A stretch of 64,000 nucleotides of DNA, taken from NCBI GenBank assembly GCA_002862095.1, contig PHSQ01000003.1, positions 186,001-250,000 on the forward strand, in the 5' to 3' direction. The notes under the pieces were generated by a model. It saw only the letters and a program-made list of their open reading frames with translations, searched no databases and was not told the DNA's origin. The DNA comes from Methylocystis sp. KS32 (GTDB lineage: Bacteria; Pseudomonadota; Alphaproteobacteria; Rhizobiales; Beijerinckiaceae). Of the stretch, positions 20,842 through 29,133 are shown piece by piece; positions within the stretch are counted from its first letter, which is position 1, and the number at the start of each line of letters is the position of its first letter. The translations under genes were made by a program, and so were the position numbers.

Positions 20842-21486
20842 TTATTCCAGAAAGCTCACATATGCGGCCACCGCCGAAATCTGCTGGGCGGTCAGGCCGT
20901 GGGCGATAGGCTCCATGAGCGCCGAATTATCCGGGTTGCTGCGATCCTGCCCGCGCTCTCGTGTCCAGTTCCCGAGCTCCTTCTCGATGTAGTCGTAGAG
21001 TTGGCCAGCCAAACGTGGAAACGGACCGTTCCCTTTGGCGTCGGGGCCATGACACGAGGCGCAGGGGGGAATATTGGTCTCTGGAACACCCTCGTCATAA
21101 ATCTTTTTACCGGCCGCGGCCAATTCCTTCGAGCCGCCCCCGAGAGGCTTGGGATTAAGATCCTTGAAATAGGCGCTCAACCCCTTGAGCATCGCCGGAC
21201 TGAGAACATGGGCGACGTTGAACATGACGGGATTTGTTCGTCTGCGTTCGACGAATGCTTGCAACTGGTTTTCCAGATATTCCGGCTGCTGGCCAGCGAG
21301 GCGCGGCATCGGGTAGGCGCCGCGGAAGCCCTGGGCGTTCACGCCATGGCATGTCTTACAATAATTGATTTTAGCCTGCAAGTCGCGGGGCGAAACAGCT
21401 CCCGACTCCTCTGCCTCGCCCGTCGTGGCGAAGCAAATCATTACGATTGACGCGACGAACAGGAAGCGAGGATTGGTGTGTTTCAT
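20842..21486 (-). CDS. Diheme cytochrome c (c4-like), copy 1
   Basis: A 214-residue exported cytochrome with a signal peptide (FLFVASIVMICFATTGEAEE) and two heme-attachment motifs, CKTCH in the N-terminal domain and CASCH in the C-terminal domain. Each domain is a class I cytochrome c with likely axial Met (for example NPVMFNVAHVL). YPMPRLAGQQPEYLENQLQA is nearly the same in the paralogue at 21760. It probably carries electrons in the periplasm. It is divergent from the other two cytochromes across a 270-bp gap. A start at 21498 is possible. Confidence 0.88.
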   Translation of the reverse strand: MKHTNPRFLFVASIVMICFATTGEAEESGAVSPRDLQAKINYCKTCHGVNAQGFRGAYPMPRLAGQQPEYLENQLQAFVERRRTNPVMFNVAHVLSPAMLKGLSAYFKDLNPKPLGGGSKELAAAGKKIYDEGVPETNIPPCASCHGPDAKGNGPFPRLAGQLYDYIEKELGNWTRERGQDRSNPDNSALMEPIAHGLTAQQISAVAAYVSFLE

Positions 21487-21629
21487 GGATTTCGCCAAGC
21501 GGATTGTGATCGAAAAAAGGGGACGTCGCTGCCGCGCCGTAAACTAGTATCCGATCGCATGAAAAGCGGCAACAGCTTCTCCGAATCTCATAACATCGCC
21601 ATGCTCAACAATTTTCAAAAAAACTCTAT

Positions 21630-21658
21630 TTGCCGATTTCGAAGGCGATTGATAGTAT
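21630..21658 (+). promoter_or_regulatory. Possible promoter for cytochrome pair
   Basis: TTGCCG, a 17-base spacer and TAGTAT about 100 bases before the cytochrome gene at 21760. The match to sigma-70 boxes is moderate (5 of 6 and 4 of 6). The region is AT-rich and separates divergent cytochrome genes. Confidence 0.3.
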
Positions 21659-21759
21659 TCCGCAGTTTCGTTTTCGCGCGAATCGCATGACGGTCCCCGG
21701 ACGGCGCGCGATAGGGAGCGGGCGAAATTTATCGGATTGTTTCGAAGCATGGGGCGGGC

Positions 21760-22404
21760 ATGAGGATTGTCGGTTTGCCAATTATGGCCGGTGCGCTTGC
21801 CGTCGTCGCGGCCTCTAGTTCGCTTGCCGCGGACCGCGACGAAGGCGGCGACTCAAAGCATGGATTCCAAGCCAAGCTCGAATATTGCAAAACCTGTCAT
21901 GGCCTGTCCGGAGAAGGCTATCGCGGCTATTTTTCCATGCCGCGTCTGGCCGGGCAGCAACCCAAATATATCGAAAATCAGCTGCGCGCTTTTTCCGAGC
22001 GGCGACGCGTGAACCCGGTGATGTTCAATGTGGCTCATGTTCTCAGCCCGGCTACGCTCGCGGCCTTGTCGGCGCATTTCAAGGCGTTGAATCCCCCGCC
22101 GAGCGGCGGCGGACCGAAAGAGCATCTGGCCTTGGGCAAAACCATCTTTGAAGAGGGACTGCCGGAATCCAACGTCCCTGCATGTTCGGCATGTCATGGT
22201 CCGGAGGCGAAAGGCCATGAGGAAATTCCGCGACTCGCTGGCCAACTCTATCCTTACACGCTTCAAGCGCTGTCATATTGGGGCAAGGAACGCGGACAGG
22301 GCGGAACAAGAGACGACACCTCGGCGATCATGGTGCCCACGACGCACAATCTCACGCAAGAACAGATGTCCGCGATCGCGGCGTATTTGAGCTATATGAA
22401 ATGA
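21760..22404 (+). CDS. Diheme cytochrome c (c4-like), copy 2
   Basis: A 214-residue exported diheme cytochrome, a clear paralogue of the divergent copy at 20842. It has a signal peptide (MRIVGLPIMAGALAVVAASS), heme motifs CKTCH and CSACH, and the shared stretches YFSMPRLAGQQPKYIENQLR and NPVMFNVAHVLSPATL. Its stop codon overlaps the next ATG as ATGA, so the next cytochrome is translationally coupled. The physiological donor and acceptor are unknown. Confidence 0.88.
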   Translation: MRIVGLPIMAGALAVVAASSSLAADRDEGGDSKHGFQAKLEYCKTCHGLSGEGYRGYFSMPRLAGQQPKYIENQLRAFSERRRVNPVMFNVAHVLSPATLAALSAHFKALNPPPSGGGPKEHLALGKTIFEEGLPESNVPACSACHGPEAKGHEEIPRLAGQLYPYTLQALSYWGKERGQGGTRDDTSAIMVPTTHNLTQEQMSAIAAYLSYMK

Positions 22405-23045
22405 GACTCGTCTCCTTGGACGTCGATATCGCGGCACCTCGGGATATGACGCGACGCCATTCGACGGTGGCGACGTTCACGCTCGCGGCGGTTCTTTTCG
22501 CTGGCCCGTTGTCGGCCCAAGAGCAGCTTCCGATCCGCAACTGCACCTGGTGCCATGGCTCCTCGGCCCAAGGATTCGCGAATGCGCCGAGAATCGCGGG
22601 TCAGACGCGCCAATACCTTGAGATGTCGCTCCAGAGCTTCAAGAATCACGCTCGCGACAATCCCTATTCGAAACAATATATGTGGGGCGCGACAGCGAAT
22701 CTGGACGCGGAGATGGCGCATGGCTTCGCGGCTTATTTTTCCGAACTTCCGGCTGAACCGGCGAACGATGGAGACGCGGCGCTGGAGGATCAAGGTAAAG
22801 CGATTTACAGTGAAGGCCTACCAGACGAGAATGTCGTGTCCTGCATCGTATGCCATGGACCTAAGGCGCAAGGTTATGAACGCATTCCGCGCCTGGGGGG
22901 TATGGGTTACGCCTATTTGAAGCGACGGCTCGAACAATGGGGTGAGGGCTATCATGCCGCCGCGGAGCCCATGCCGCGTATAGCGAGAAACCTGACAACC
23001 AATGAAATCAATGCGCTAGCTTCGTATTTGAGTTTCATAAAGTGA
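22401..23045 (+). CDS. Diheme cytochrome c (c4-like), copy 3, more divergent
   Basis: A third diheme cytochrome with CTWCH and CIVCH heme motifs. Likely axial ligands include Met in KQYMWGATANLDAEMAHG and AEPMPRIARNLT. It keeps the repeat layout PRIAGQTRQYLEMSLQSFKN seen in copies 1 and 2 but is much more diverged. The start at 22401 overlaps the previous stop. An internal ATG at 22446 would give a cleaner signal peptide (MTRRHSTVATFTLAAVLFAG). The two-gene unit suggests the cytochromes work together. Confidence 0.87.
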   Translation: MRLVSLDVDIAAPRDMTRRHSTVATFTLAAVLFAGPLSAQEQLPIRNCTWCHGSSAQGFANAPRIAGQTRQYLEMSLQSFKNHARDNPYSKQYMWGATANLDAEMAHGFAAYFSELPAEPANDGDAALEDQGKAIYSEGLPDENVVSCIVCHGPKAQGYERIPRLGGMGYAYLKRRLEQWGEGYHAAAEPMPRIARNLTTNEINALASYLSFIK

Positions 23046-25699: not shown

Positions 25700-27286
25700 T
25701 CATTGCATCAAGGCGCCGCCCATCAGCAAGCTCTGAACTCTGGCCGTCAACTCATCGAGAGTGAAGGGCTTGCGCAGCACATCCATGCCGGGAACGATTT
25801 TTAGGTTTTCAAGGGATGCCCCCGCATAGCCGGTAATAAGCAAGATTGGCAAAGCGGGGCGGGCGGCTCGGGCGATTTCAGCCAATTGGCGTCCGCTCAG
25901 CCCCGGTAGACCGATGTCGCTAACCAGCAAATCCAGCGCGCCAGCGGATTCCAGCGCCTTCAGCCCGGCCACCCCGTCAGCGGCCTCCAATACCGCATAA
26001 CCTATCTCCTCGAGAGCGCCGGCGATCTGGGAGCGCACCTCGGCCTGGTCCTCGACGACAAGCGCCATCCCCCGAAAGGCCGACGAAACCAGATCGCTTC
26101 CAGCAAGCGCGGCGTTGTCCTCGATCGCCAATTTGCCCGAAGGCGCGTGTCCGGGCAGAAAGAGCCGCACGCTGGTTCCCTCGCCAAGCTTGCTTTCTAT
26201 ACGCACAAACCCGCCCGACTGTTTCGCGAAGCCATAAATCTGGGACAGGCCCAGGCCGGTTCCCCGCCCCGTTGGTTTTGTCGTGAAAAATGGCTCGAAC
26301 GCCCGTTCCAAGACTTCTCCGGTCATTCCCTCGCCATTGTCGACCACCTCAAACTCAACATAGCTTCCAGGCCGCGCCTCGGGATCGGGTAGATCGTCAT
26401 CGAACTTTCGGTCAACCGTCGTAATCCTCAGCGAGCCGCCTTGAGGCATGGCGTCGCGAGCGTTGATCGCCAGATTTAGCAGGGCGCTTTCAAGTTGGGA
26501 CGGATCGCAGGAGACATTTGAGCGACAGCGCTCTAAGTGCAAATCGAGCTGAATTTCCGGCCCCAATGTCCTTCTCAGCATCTCCCTCAGACTCGCGACG
26601 AGTTTGTCGGGCTCGACTTCTCGCGGCACCAATGTCTGTCGTCGGGAAAACGCCAACATCCGATTAACGAGGCTCGAAGCGGTGTTCGACGCCTTTCGTA
26701 TCGCCTCCAGGGAAGGCCTTATTTGGGTGCCGCCTTCGCTTCCCATTCGACGATCTATGACGCTGAGAGAGCCTGCGATCACTTGAAGCACATTGTTAAA
26801 ATCATGAGCTATGCCGCCTGTCAGTTGACCTAGCGCCTCCATTTTTTGCGCGTGGGCCAATCGCTCTTCGCTCGCGAGTAGCGCGGCGTTGGCCTGGCGG
26901 AGTTGGTCGACCGAAGGAAGAGCGAGAAAATATGGCAAGCAGCGCCAGAGCGCGATAGCCGTGATAATCGAGGTGATCGCTGTCGCTAGCTTGATCACTC
27001 CCTGAAGACCATAGAGCGGCGCCCATAGGGTGAGTAAATCAAGCCAATGGGTTGCGCCGCAGAGGAGGATAAAGGCGGCGAACAGCGCGAGCATCGGCTG
27101 AAAGACGAGGTCTCTGCGGCGCCTTCCTATCGTGATGAGCGTCAAGGGGATGCAGAAATAAGCCACCGCCGTGGCTGCGTCCGATAACGCATATAGCCAG
27201 ATCAGGCCGGGCTCCCATAGCAGACAGTATCCATGCGGTTCAAGGCCGGAGGTGCTAAAGAGCCACTGGCTCAGCGCGGATAACAT
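25700..27286 (-). CDS. Hybrid histidine kinase with ETR1-like ethylene-binding membrane domain
   Basis: A 528-residue hybrid kinase. Residues 1-120 form a three-helix membrane domain with SDAATAVAYFCIPLTLI and LLCGATHWLDLLTLW. These correspond without gaps to the ethylene-binding domain of plant ETR1. Asp36, Tyr43, Pro47, Cys76 and His80 match ETR1 Asp25, Tyr32, Pro36, Cys65 and His69, all offset by 11; Cys and His are the copper ligands in ETR1. A coiled coil and HisKA domain follow (His161 in GGIAHDFNNVL), then HATPase_c (NLAINARDAMP, GRGTGLGLSQIYGF). A receiver domain with Asp in LLVSDIGLPG is C-terminal. A frame start at 27325 exists, but 27286 fits the family. The intact IS630 begins 45 bp upstream. 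Confidence 0.88.
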   Translation of the reverse strand: MLSALSQWLFSTSGLEPHGYCLLWEPGLIWLYALSDAATAVAYFCIPLTLITIGRRRRDLVFQPMLALFAAFILLCGATHWLDLLTLWAPLYGLQGVIKLATAITSIITAIALWRCLPYFLALPSVDQLRQANAALLASEERLAHAQKMEALGQLTGGIAHDFNNVLQVIAGSLSVIDRRMGSEGGTQIRPSLEAIRKASNTASSLVNRMLAFSRRQTLVPREVEPDKLVASLREMLRRTLGPEIQLDLHLERCRSNVSCDPSQLESALLNLAINARDAMPQGGSLRITTVDRKFDDDLPDPEARPGSYVEFEVVDNGEGMTGEVLERAFEPFFTTKPTGRGTGLGLSQIYGFAKQSGGFVRIESKLGEGTSVRLFLPGHAPSGKLAIEDNAALAGSDLVSSAFRGMALVVEDQAEVRSQIAGALEEIGYAVLEAADGVAGLKALESAGALDLLVSDIGLPGLSGRQLAEIARAARPALPILLITGYAGASLENLKIVPGMDVLRKPFTLDELTARVQSLLMGGALMQ

Positions 27287-27330
27287 ATGCGGCGCTCCAA
27301 GGAAGAAGTCGCAGAGAGAACCCAAAACTA

Positions 27331-28566
27331 GTGGCCGCCGTCATTGCTTTTGACGGTGAGTTCTGAATCTCTGTCGCTGCGCATCAGCGATGGAGGTGAT
27401 TCGTGGCCGGGAAAGAGATCGCCGTCAAGAAATACGTGGTTCGCTTGAGCGCGGAGGAGCGTGAGAAACTCTCGGAGTTCATCCGCTCCGGGCATCGTTC
27501 GGCGCAGTTGTCGACGAAGGCGCGCATCCTGCTGAAGGCCGATGTGTCGGACGCCGGCGAAGGCTGGAGCGACAGCGAGATTTCCGCCGCTTTGGACACC
27601 AGCGTCGCTAACGTCGAGCGGACGCGCCGCCAATTGGTGGAGGAAGGGTTCGAGGCGGTATTGACGCGCAAATACAATCCGCGCTCTGCGCCGCGTCGAA
27701 TTTTCGATGGCGTAGCGGAAGCCAAGCTGATTGCGCTGGCCTGCGGGCCGGCGCCGGCGGGTTACGCCCGATGGACGCTGAGCCTGCTCGAACAGAAGGT
27801 CGTCGAGCTGAATATCGTCGCCAAGGCCAGCGACAACACGATCGGACGCACGCTCAAAAAAACATTCTCAAGCCGCATCTTAAGCAGCAATGGGTGATCC
27901 CGCCGCACGCCAACGCGGGCTTCGTCGCCGCGATGGAAGACGTGCTGGAGGTCTATCAACGGCCGCATGATCGGCAGCATCCCGTAGTGTGCCTCGACGA
28001 GACGACAAAGCAAATGATCGCCGAGACGCGCGCGCCCATTCCCGCCGCGCCCGGACGCAAGGCGCGCCACGATTACGAATACGAGCGCAATGGCGTGGCC
28101 AGCCTGTTCATGATGTTCGCGCCGCTGGAAGGCTGGCGCTGCGTCAAGGTCGCCGACCGCCACGCCGCCATTGACTACGCGCATGTCCTCAAAGAACTAT
28201 CCGATACGCATTTCCCTGACGCGACGAAGATCGTGCTGGTGCAGGACAACCTCTCGACGCACGTGCCGGCATCGCTCTACGCCGCCTTTCCCGCCGCCGA
28301 GGCGCGACGGCTCGTCGAGCGCTTCGAATGGCATTTCACGCCCAAGCATGGAAGCTGGCTCGACATGGCAGAGTCTGAGCTCGCCGTCCTTGCAACTCAA
28401 TGCCTCGATCGCCGCATCCCCGACAAGGCGACACTGATTGCGGAAGTCGCCGCATGGCAAAACAATCGCAACAAGCGCTGCATGAAAGCCGACTGGCAGT
28501 TCACGACCGAAGACGCCCGCGTTAAGCTGAAAACCCTATACCCTCAGTTCGAATGACTCGGGCCAC
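27331..28566 (+). mobile_element. Intact IS630-family insertion sequence
   Basis: A 1236-bp element flanked by TA on both sides (27329-27330 and 28567-28568), the target duplication of IS630/Tc1-mariner elements. Inverted ends are imperfect: left GTGGCCGCCGTCATT, right (reverse complement) GTGGCCCGAGTCATT. It holds one transposase gene in two overlapping frames. It was inserted just upstream of the start of the ethylene-receptor-like kinase, probably separating that gene from its native promoter. Confidence 0.9.
27403..28556 (+). CDS. IS630 transposase made by programmed -1 frameshift
   Basis: The first frame (27403-27897) encodes the DNA-binding region: LSAEEREKLSEFIRSGHRSA, then WSDSEISAALDTSVANVERT. 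At CTCAAAAAAACATT (near 27855) a seven-A run lets the ribosome slip back one base. It then enters the second frame, continuing KNILKPHLKQQWVIPPHANA. That frame has the DDE parts VVCLDETTK, VLVQDNLSTH and HGSWLDMAESELAV (the terminal Glu). Both frames are undamaged, so the transposase is probably functional. The GTG-like start at 27403 follows GGAGG. Confidence 0.87.
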
Positions 28567-29133
28567 TAGTCGTCCGCGGGCCGCGCTCGCCACAAGCGAG
28601 CCTTCGACATGCCGGCACGGACGCGGCAGGCCGCGGCGCTAATATCTGGCTCCCGGCCACAGAAGACCGGCCACAGAAGAGGAGCGTGACGCCCCTGAAT
28701 TGGTCCATTCGGAGGGCGCGGATGGAGCAACGTCTGGCGTCTTCACCCAACGGATGAACCTATTGTCGTCCCTGTCCCTCAAACGCCTTTTCGCCGATAT
28801 CATGTTAAATTGGAAGGGGAAATCGGCCTGGATGGACAACCTATCGCGAACTCGCCTCTAATGTGTCGATTTTTTTCGCCAAGGGAGGAATGGCCAATCG
28901 TAGGTCGTCCAGACGACACGGCAGGCGCCAAAGCGAAATCGAGCGGCCACGCTCCAAGTCCCCCAAACAATGGGGAAGCGCCCCGGATCGACGAAGCGGA
29001 GCAGATCCAGACGAAATGAGCTGTAAGCTTTTCCGTAATCGGCTCTATGATTATACTGCGAGCTTATCCGGGCTGGATTACTCGCCGGGCCGCGGTCGGT
29101 TAATTTCTGGCGGTCGAACGGATAAACAGTTGC
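28567..29133. other. Non-coding flank of the IS630 element
   Basis: About 565 bases without a recognisable gene. A 14-bp direct tandem duplication (CCGGCCACAGAAGA twice) lies at about 28653-28680. The small open frames look random. Part of it must serve as promoter for the gene at 29134. Confidence 0.4.

Follow-up and report, generated by a model that had tools for sequence, protein, structure and literature searches.

Does a methanotrophic alphaproteobacterium possess a receptor for ethylene, and what could such a receptor be used for? The question is raised by a histidine kinase gene in a stretch of 64,000 nucleotides from Methylocystis sp. KS32 (contig PHSQ01000003.1, positions 186,001 to 250,000), hereafter the window, whose own numbering is used throughout. 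A preliminary description had read the gene product as a complete ETR1-type ethylene-binding domain on a hybrid kinase with its own receiver in an alphaproteobacterium. Profile, residues, predicted structure and phylogeny agree in supporting this assignment. The gene and its parts are the following:

25700..27286, minus strand: hybrid histidine kinase with the order ethylene-binding domain (EBD), HisKA, HATPase_c, receiver (REC); four Pfam domains, intact reading frame, 16-row alignment
26909..27286, minus strand: ethylene-binding (ETR1_N) domain, residues 1-126; Pfam, alignment, predicted structure
26636..26833, minus strand: HisKA/DHp domain, residues 152-217, with the phospho-acceptor His161 in GGIAHDFNN; Pfam and invariant columns of alignment A2
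26153..26506, minus strand: HATPase_c domain, residues 261-378, with N, G1, F and G2 boxes; Pfam and alignment
25733..26062, minus strand: receiver domain (Response_reg), residues 409-518, with Asp413, Asp457, Thr485 and Lys506; Pfam and alignment
27295..27298, minus strand: Shine-Dalgarno motif GGAG, 8 nt from the ATG at 27286; sequence

The reading frame runs from 27286 to 25700 on the minus strand and encodes 528 amino acids plus a stop, with no internal stop. GGAG is also found just 5' of the corresponding start in all eight relatives compared. In the Pfam search, PF25487 (ETR1_N) matched residues 28-123 with 112.2 bits (gathering threshold 27), and the window gene was its only match in the assembly, which is 92.8% complete. 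The presence of HisKA, HATPase_c and receiver domains with their catalytic residues, as judged from Pfam and alignment, makes the protein a hybrid histidine kinase. Its catalytic parts look complete, since His161, the N, G1, F and G2 boxes of the ATPase and the receiver residues Asp413, Asp457, Thr485 and Lys506 are conserved in the 16-row alignment A2. The protein has no PAS domain, its receiver is fused and no regulator gene adjoins; a GAF domain was not found in the Pfam scan either. The PAS-less order EBD-HisKA-HATPase-REC was common to the three other full-length proteins of the two clade sets (20 and 24 rows, below) that were scanned in one frame (L056, L042, L015). PAS domains are present in L033 (AzoEtr1) and L034, and in L067, from a Rhodopila relative outside both clade sets, extra sequence separates the domain from the kinase.

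ETR1 residues 1-120 served as alignment reference, and the seven ethylene-binding residues we take to be Asp25, Tyr32, Ile35, Pro36, Ile62, Cys65 and His69. Against this list, the window domain has seven of seven at a constant offset of +11. The pairing of Asp36, Tyr43, Pro47, Cys76 and His80 with ETR1 Asp25, Tyr32, Pro36, Cys65 and His69, proposed earlier, was reproduced by the alignment, and Ile46 and Ile73 match ETR1 Ile35 and Ile62 as well. That the two domains align without a gap is correct through helix 2; a 3-residue gap precedes helix 3, and past it Lys99 pairs with ETR1 Lys91. The local alignment scored 129, whereas 1000 shuffles gave a mean of 30.6 (sd 5.4, maximum 60), which places the similarity about 18 sd over the shuffle mean. 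Ethylene binding by ETR1 is reported to require seven residues (PMC11819568), some of which are named individually in PMC6586836.

For conservation we used 131 distinct sequences from 163 matched stretches, the window's own (L001) included; the loci in this set are the better-scoring matches, a subset of all matches. Tyr43, Ile73, Cys76 and His80 were invariant (131/131). A pattern demanding Cys76, Gly77 and His80 had found 72 of the 131 rows, and 70 of these 72 kept all seven residues. Among the 56 profile-found rows, every one had Cys76 and His80 and 46 had all seven residues; so did two of the three plasmid copies and, in the methanotroph clade, each of the 19 rows besides the window's. Cys21, which precedes helix 1 in protein order, was near-invariant (129/131 rows).

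This pattern bears on two other readings of the site. The protein might sense copper, with Cu(I) loading of Cys76 and His80 as the signal and ethylene incidental. Ligands invariant in every row, 72 of which were found by requiring them, would suit such a function, but the non-ligand residues Asp36, Tyr43, Ile46, Pro47 and Ile73 are conserved as well, as the profile-found rows with all seven testify. Moreover, the KD of ETR1 for Cu(I) is given as ~1e-15 M (PMC6586836), so that copper should already occupy the site under ordinary cellular conditions. We regard a copper sensor as improbable. According to the other reading, the natural ligand would be a different small pi-ligand, such as acetylene, carbon monoxide or propylene. 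Plant ethylene receptors also accept CO and other alkenes, at lower affinity, and the gene context of the window kinase points to no ligand. AzoEtr1, however, has the same seven residues and binds ethylene with high affinity (PMC11819568), and we consider a ligand other than ethylene a slightly fainter prospect still.

An AlphaFold2 model of the domain, built with 55 sequences, reached a pLDDT of 91 and placed helices at 26-56, 63-86 and 92-122. The concern that Cys76 and His80 might fall outside the membrane helix was not borne out: the prediction has three transmembrane helices, with both residues inside helix 2. The full-length model was weaker (pLDDT 71.5, pTM 0.41) and showed a continuous helix, residues 126-183, that links the membrane part to the kinase. 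Profile matching of the domain to solved structures gave no match at E<=1, and a PDB fold search with the domain model none at E<=0.001; the corresponding BFVD search returned one unnamed match (E 2.1e-4). In ETR1, the copper site has been modelled at the dimer interface (PMC6586836).

At E<=0.001, PF25487 matched 29 of 398 genomes of the host phylum (28 over the cut-off) and 39 of 199 genomes of the host family (38 over the cut-off). The scan of named genomes returned at least 588 relatives, of which 80 were kept, including Acetobacteraceae, Caulobacter, Sphingomonadaceae, Pontibacter and others. Judged from the distribution sampled across phylum, family and named genomes, this kind of domain is widespread and patchy. 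It was present in nine of ten Methylosinus genomes, one match being a contig-end fragment, and in 14 of 39 Methylocystis genomes. The other 25 Methylocystis genomes, 16 of the 30 good-quality ones among them, gave no match, and the kinase gene is accessory in this genus.

The domain tree (132 rows, 125 columns) was made by a quick method from a short alignment, and 68 of its 129 inner branches are drawn open. The window domain lies inside a 20-row Methylocystis/Methylosinus set (SH-aLRT 94, not starred), itself nested in a 24-row Beijerinckiaceae set (SH-aLRT 96, starred). An orthologue of the window kinase is encoded on a Methylocystis contig, G190:C1. The ethylene-binding domain is under strong purifying selection in close pairs: seven pairs without the window gave omega values of 0.06-0.16, and the nearly identical L039/L040 gave 0. 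For the kinase part, omega was 0.52 and 0.58 when L036 was paired with L057 and L058, far looser than the domain, and 0.10-0.25 in the other six pairs. The two pairs that include the window gave 0.15 and 0.19 for the domain, rough values because dS was 1.2 and 0.7.

We also considered whether presence of the domain follows methanotrophy. Within the family sample it occurred in 14 of 20 PF02461-bearing genomes and in 25 of 179 others (Fisher 2.4e-7), but this is essentially one clade, and the idea was rejected. Without Methylocystis and Methylosinus the counts became 1/4 and 25/177 (p 0.47); inside Methylocystis they were 13 of 31 genomes with pmoA and 1 of 8 without (Fisher p 0.22). Outside Methylocystis, the phylum sample held one genome with PF02461 over the cut-off (G325). 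As the association is essentially that of one clade, we claim inheritance within the methanotroph lineage and not repeated association.

The host had been pictured as a soil or plant-associated alphaproteobacterium; the class holds, and the lifestyle is here that of a Methylocystis methanotroph, which changes the likely meaning of the receptor. Two PF02461 genes are present in its genome (3.36 Mb in 7 contigs, 92.8% complete), and the one examined sits in a complete C-A-B operon of the pMMO/AMO type. The subunits of this operon score highest with the bacterial AMO models of NCBIfam, and subunit A falls just short of the TIGR methane/ammonia model (317.2, cut-off 318.15). By these profiles, pMMO and AMO are not told apart; the name pMMO rests on lineage.

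Ethylene is described as both co-substrate and inhibitor of pMMO in PMC11507031, where its conversion by methane monooxygenase to epoxyethane is blamed for toxicity to methanotrophs, and where 3-50 ppmv ethylene is reported to have inhibited methane oxidation in several forest soils. The same source states that Methylohalobius crimeensis induces an epoxide pathway when exposed to ethylene and that the key gene of this pathway occurs in 14 of 150 methanotroph genomes and 2 of 16 from Methylocystis; the word "receptor" has no occurrence in its main text. Our search of the open-access literature, made on titles and abstract openings, found no paper on ethylene receptors in methanotrophs.

Copper deserves attention in this context too, as the choice of methane monooxygenase in methanotrophs depends on it. 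PF02332, a diiron hydroxylase family with the sMMO hydroxylase among its members, was looked for in 25 hand-picked genomes. It was present in 9 of 17 genomes with the domain and in none of 8 without (Fisher p 0.02, for a hand-picked sample and ignoring kinship), and within Methylocystis/Methylosinus the counts were 9 of 13 with the domain and 0 of 5 without (p 0.03). We take this co-occurrence as no more than a lead towards a connection with methane oxidation under copper control. It would also speak for copper as the signal, but the window genome has the domain and no PF02332 match, and 25 genomes of the family have the domain without PF02461; ethylene remains our preferred ligand. An sMMO-only explanation for the clade members without pmoA (G050, G125, G075) met with no PF02332 in these assemblies, which are incomplete (78-87%). 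Counted from the other side, all nine PF02332-bearing genomes (L136-L143 among their loci) carry the ethylene-binding domain, a small and non-independent set.

Whether the kinase is expressed in this particular strain is a separate question, raised by the mobile element at its 5' side:

27328..28569, plus strand: IS630-type insertion sequence with an HTH + DDE_3 transposase in two reading frames; Pfam, repeats, genome copies

The element has terminal inverted repeats at 27327-27345 and 28552-28570 and stands ~41 bp 5' of the kinase start codon. The HTH and DDE parts of its transposase (27403-28556) are in overlapping frames, a two-frame layout often seen where frameshifting is used. The insertion spared the Shine-Dalgarno motif, but the kinase promoter may have been cut off, because the element separates the ribosome site from any promoter further upstream. 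If so, the gene would be a silent relic in KS32. Seven full-length copies of ~100% identity in the genome, the window copy included, suggest recent activity and would fit this possibility, as would a weak scan between 25500 and 27700 that found no sigma-70-like promoter. Against it, the open reading frame is intact with its Shine-Dalgarno motif, catalytic residues and binding site, and the two window pairs look constrained within the roughness of their omega values. An insertion so recent leaves no decay, however, which makes the intact frame weak evidence against silencing. We consider a silenced gene unlikely, though a possibility to be taken seriously; it would concern one strain and does not touch the relatives. 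The flank beyond the element is common to no relative among the loci compared.

The neighbourhood offers no partner gene. Downstream of the kinase, in the same orientation, comes an ABC transporter operon. The window arrangement is not shared with any of 24 loci compared. In four Methylosinus strains (L048/L061, L050, L055, L063), the kinase stands beside one gene group common to all four, which in L048 (1604-11561) contains the domains 4-HFC-P synthase, FolB, DUF447, DUF6513, DUF4337 and Hydantoinase_A; several of these neighbours presumably belong to methanopterin-linked C1 metabolism. In three Methylocystis loci (L036, L057, L058), the kinase is flanked by a 2OG-FeII_Oxy_2 gene on one side and a histidine-phosphatase gene on the other, and the same group occurs in Methylosinus L049 and L065 with the kinase elsewhere within it. 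A conserved partner was rejected, since both groups are absent at the window locus and do not hold for it. Elsewhere in the window, at 20842-23045, three small c-type cytochrome genes are adjacent; the first runs in the opposite direction to the second and third.

Some further domain-bearing proteins were noticed. Two have no kinase (L041:6239-6850 in G089 and L047:6694-7230 in G185; 204 and 179 aa); they show an extra hydrophobic stretch before the domain, keep the Cys and His and have Ser in place of Pro47. Their genes, from two genera, share 77% DNA identity over 534 bp, and the 13-kb loci gave no further DNA match. A third domain protein of G089 (Methylocystis), at L043:6481-9930, combines the EBD with two PAS domains, HisKA, HATPase, two receivers and Hpt. 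G114 has two copies of the kinase, of which one (L037:4694-6284) is split over two frames within the ATPase domain, from either a sequencing error or a broken gene.

Taken together, the evidence makes it likely that the window protein is a bacterial ethylene receptor. The intact gene, the complete site, the predicted fold, the clade and the host are established directly. Ethylene binding by the clade is predicted from its relatives, among which copper-dependent binding has been shown for ETR1. In the mechanism that we propose, a homodimer in the inner membrane would hold Cu(I) at Cys76 and His80 of helix 2, where ethylene would bind the metal, by homology with ETR1 and AzoEtr1, and repack the three-helix bundle. 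The change would travel along the continuous helix (residues 126-183) into the DHp domain and alter phosphorylation of His161 and then of the protein's own receiver at Asp457, with output passing to a putative further phosphotransfer protein and a regulator. Methylocystis would probably use it to sense ethylene, whose co-oxidation by methane monooxygenase yields toxic epoxyethane, and to tune its metabolism or attachment.

More tentatively, and as a possibility rather than an expectation, type II methanotrophs may have inherited a dedicated compact receptor for a co-substrate and inhibitor of their methane monooxygenase, by which ethylene steers metabolism via signalling. With a receptor conserved in Methylosinus and in some Methylocystis, a signalling route would join ethylene inhibition. 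If this is true, plant hormone output would be linked to the methane sink, a copper-bearing sensor would watch over a copper enzyme, and ethylene from plants or soil would steer methane oxidation, detoxification or carbon storage, beyond enzyme inhibition alone. It is the host that makes the receptor worth testing: inheritance in a lineage of methanotrophs that ethylene reportedly inhibits.

Bacterial ethylene receptors are known from Synechocystis and Azospirillum, with homologues in many proteobacteria (PMC7700396, PMC11819568). The view in the preliminary description that such domains are little studied outside cyanobacteria has to be given up in light of AzoEtr1, shown to bind ethylene (PMC11819568), and the putative receptor of the window is not the first outside cyanobacteria, as AzoEtr1 precedes it and 29 of the 398 genomes sampled from the phylum match the domain. 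The AzoEtr1 protein, from Azospirillum brasilense Sp7 (L033), is 45% identical to the window protein over the domain and resembles it in the three-helix ETR1-type domain, the seven binding residues, the histidine kinase and an alphaproteobacterial host. It differs in having the order EBD-PAS-HisKA-HATPase with no receiver and a separate, adjoining response regulator of 135 aa, whereas the window protein has a fused receiver and no PAS; its host is Azospirillum, that of the window protein a methanotroph. SynEtr1 of Synechocystis has the same domain, and the cyanobacterial comparison was made through a plasmid copy (L035), 48% identical over the domain. In the tree, the window domain belongs to a 100-row, mostly alphaproteobacterial set, and L035 branches outside it.

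The best solved match of the catalytic part is a CckA-type core (5idj, residues 143-380, E 1.6e-48), and the NCBIfam CckA models rank second and third for the window protein. We rejected an identity with CckA, as 318 and 279 bits miss the equivalog cut-offs of 1000 by a wide margin and the sensor differs; the core is CckA-like only.

Arabidopsis ETR1 is distant in the tree (branch 2.04). Its disulfide residues 4 and 6 correspond at +11 to Leu15 and Pro17, and the cysteine that the window domain does have before helix 1, Cys21, lies at neither position. The window protein has the seven residues of ETR1 and the Lys91 equivalent, and the order of ethylene-binding domain, kinase and receiver is alike in both proteins (ETR1 order from PMC6586836).
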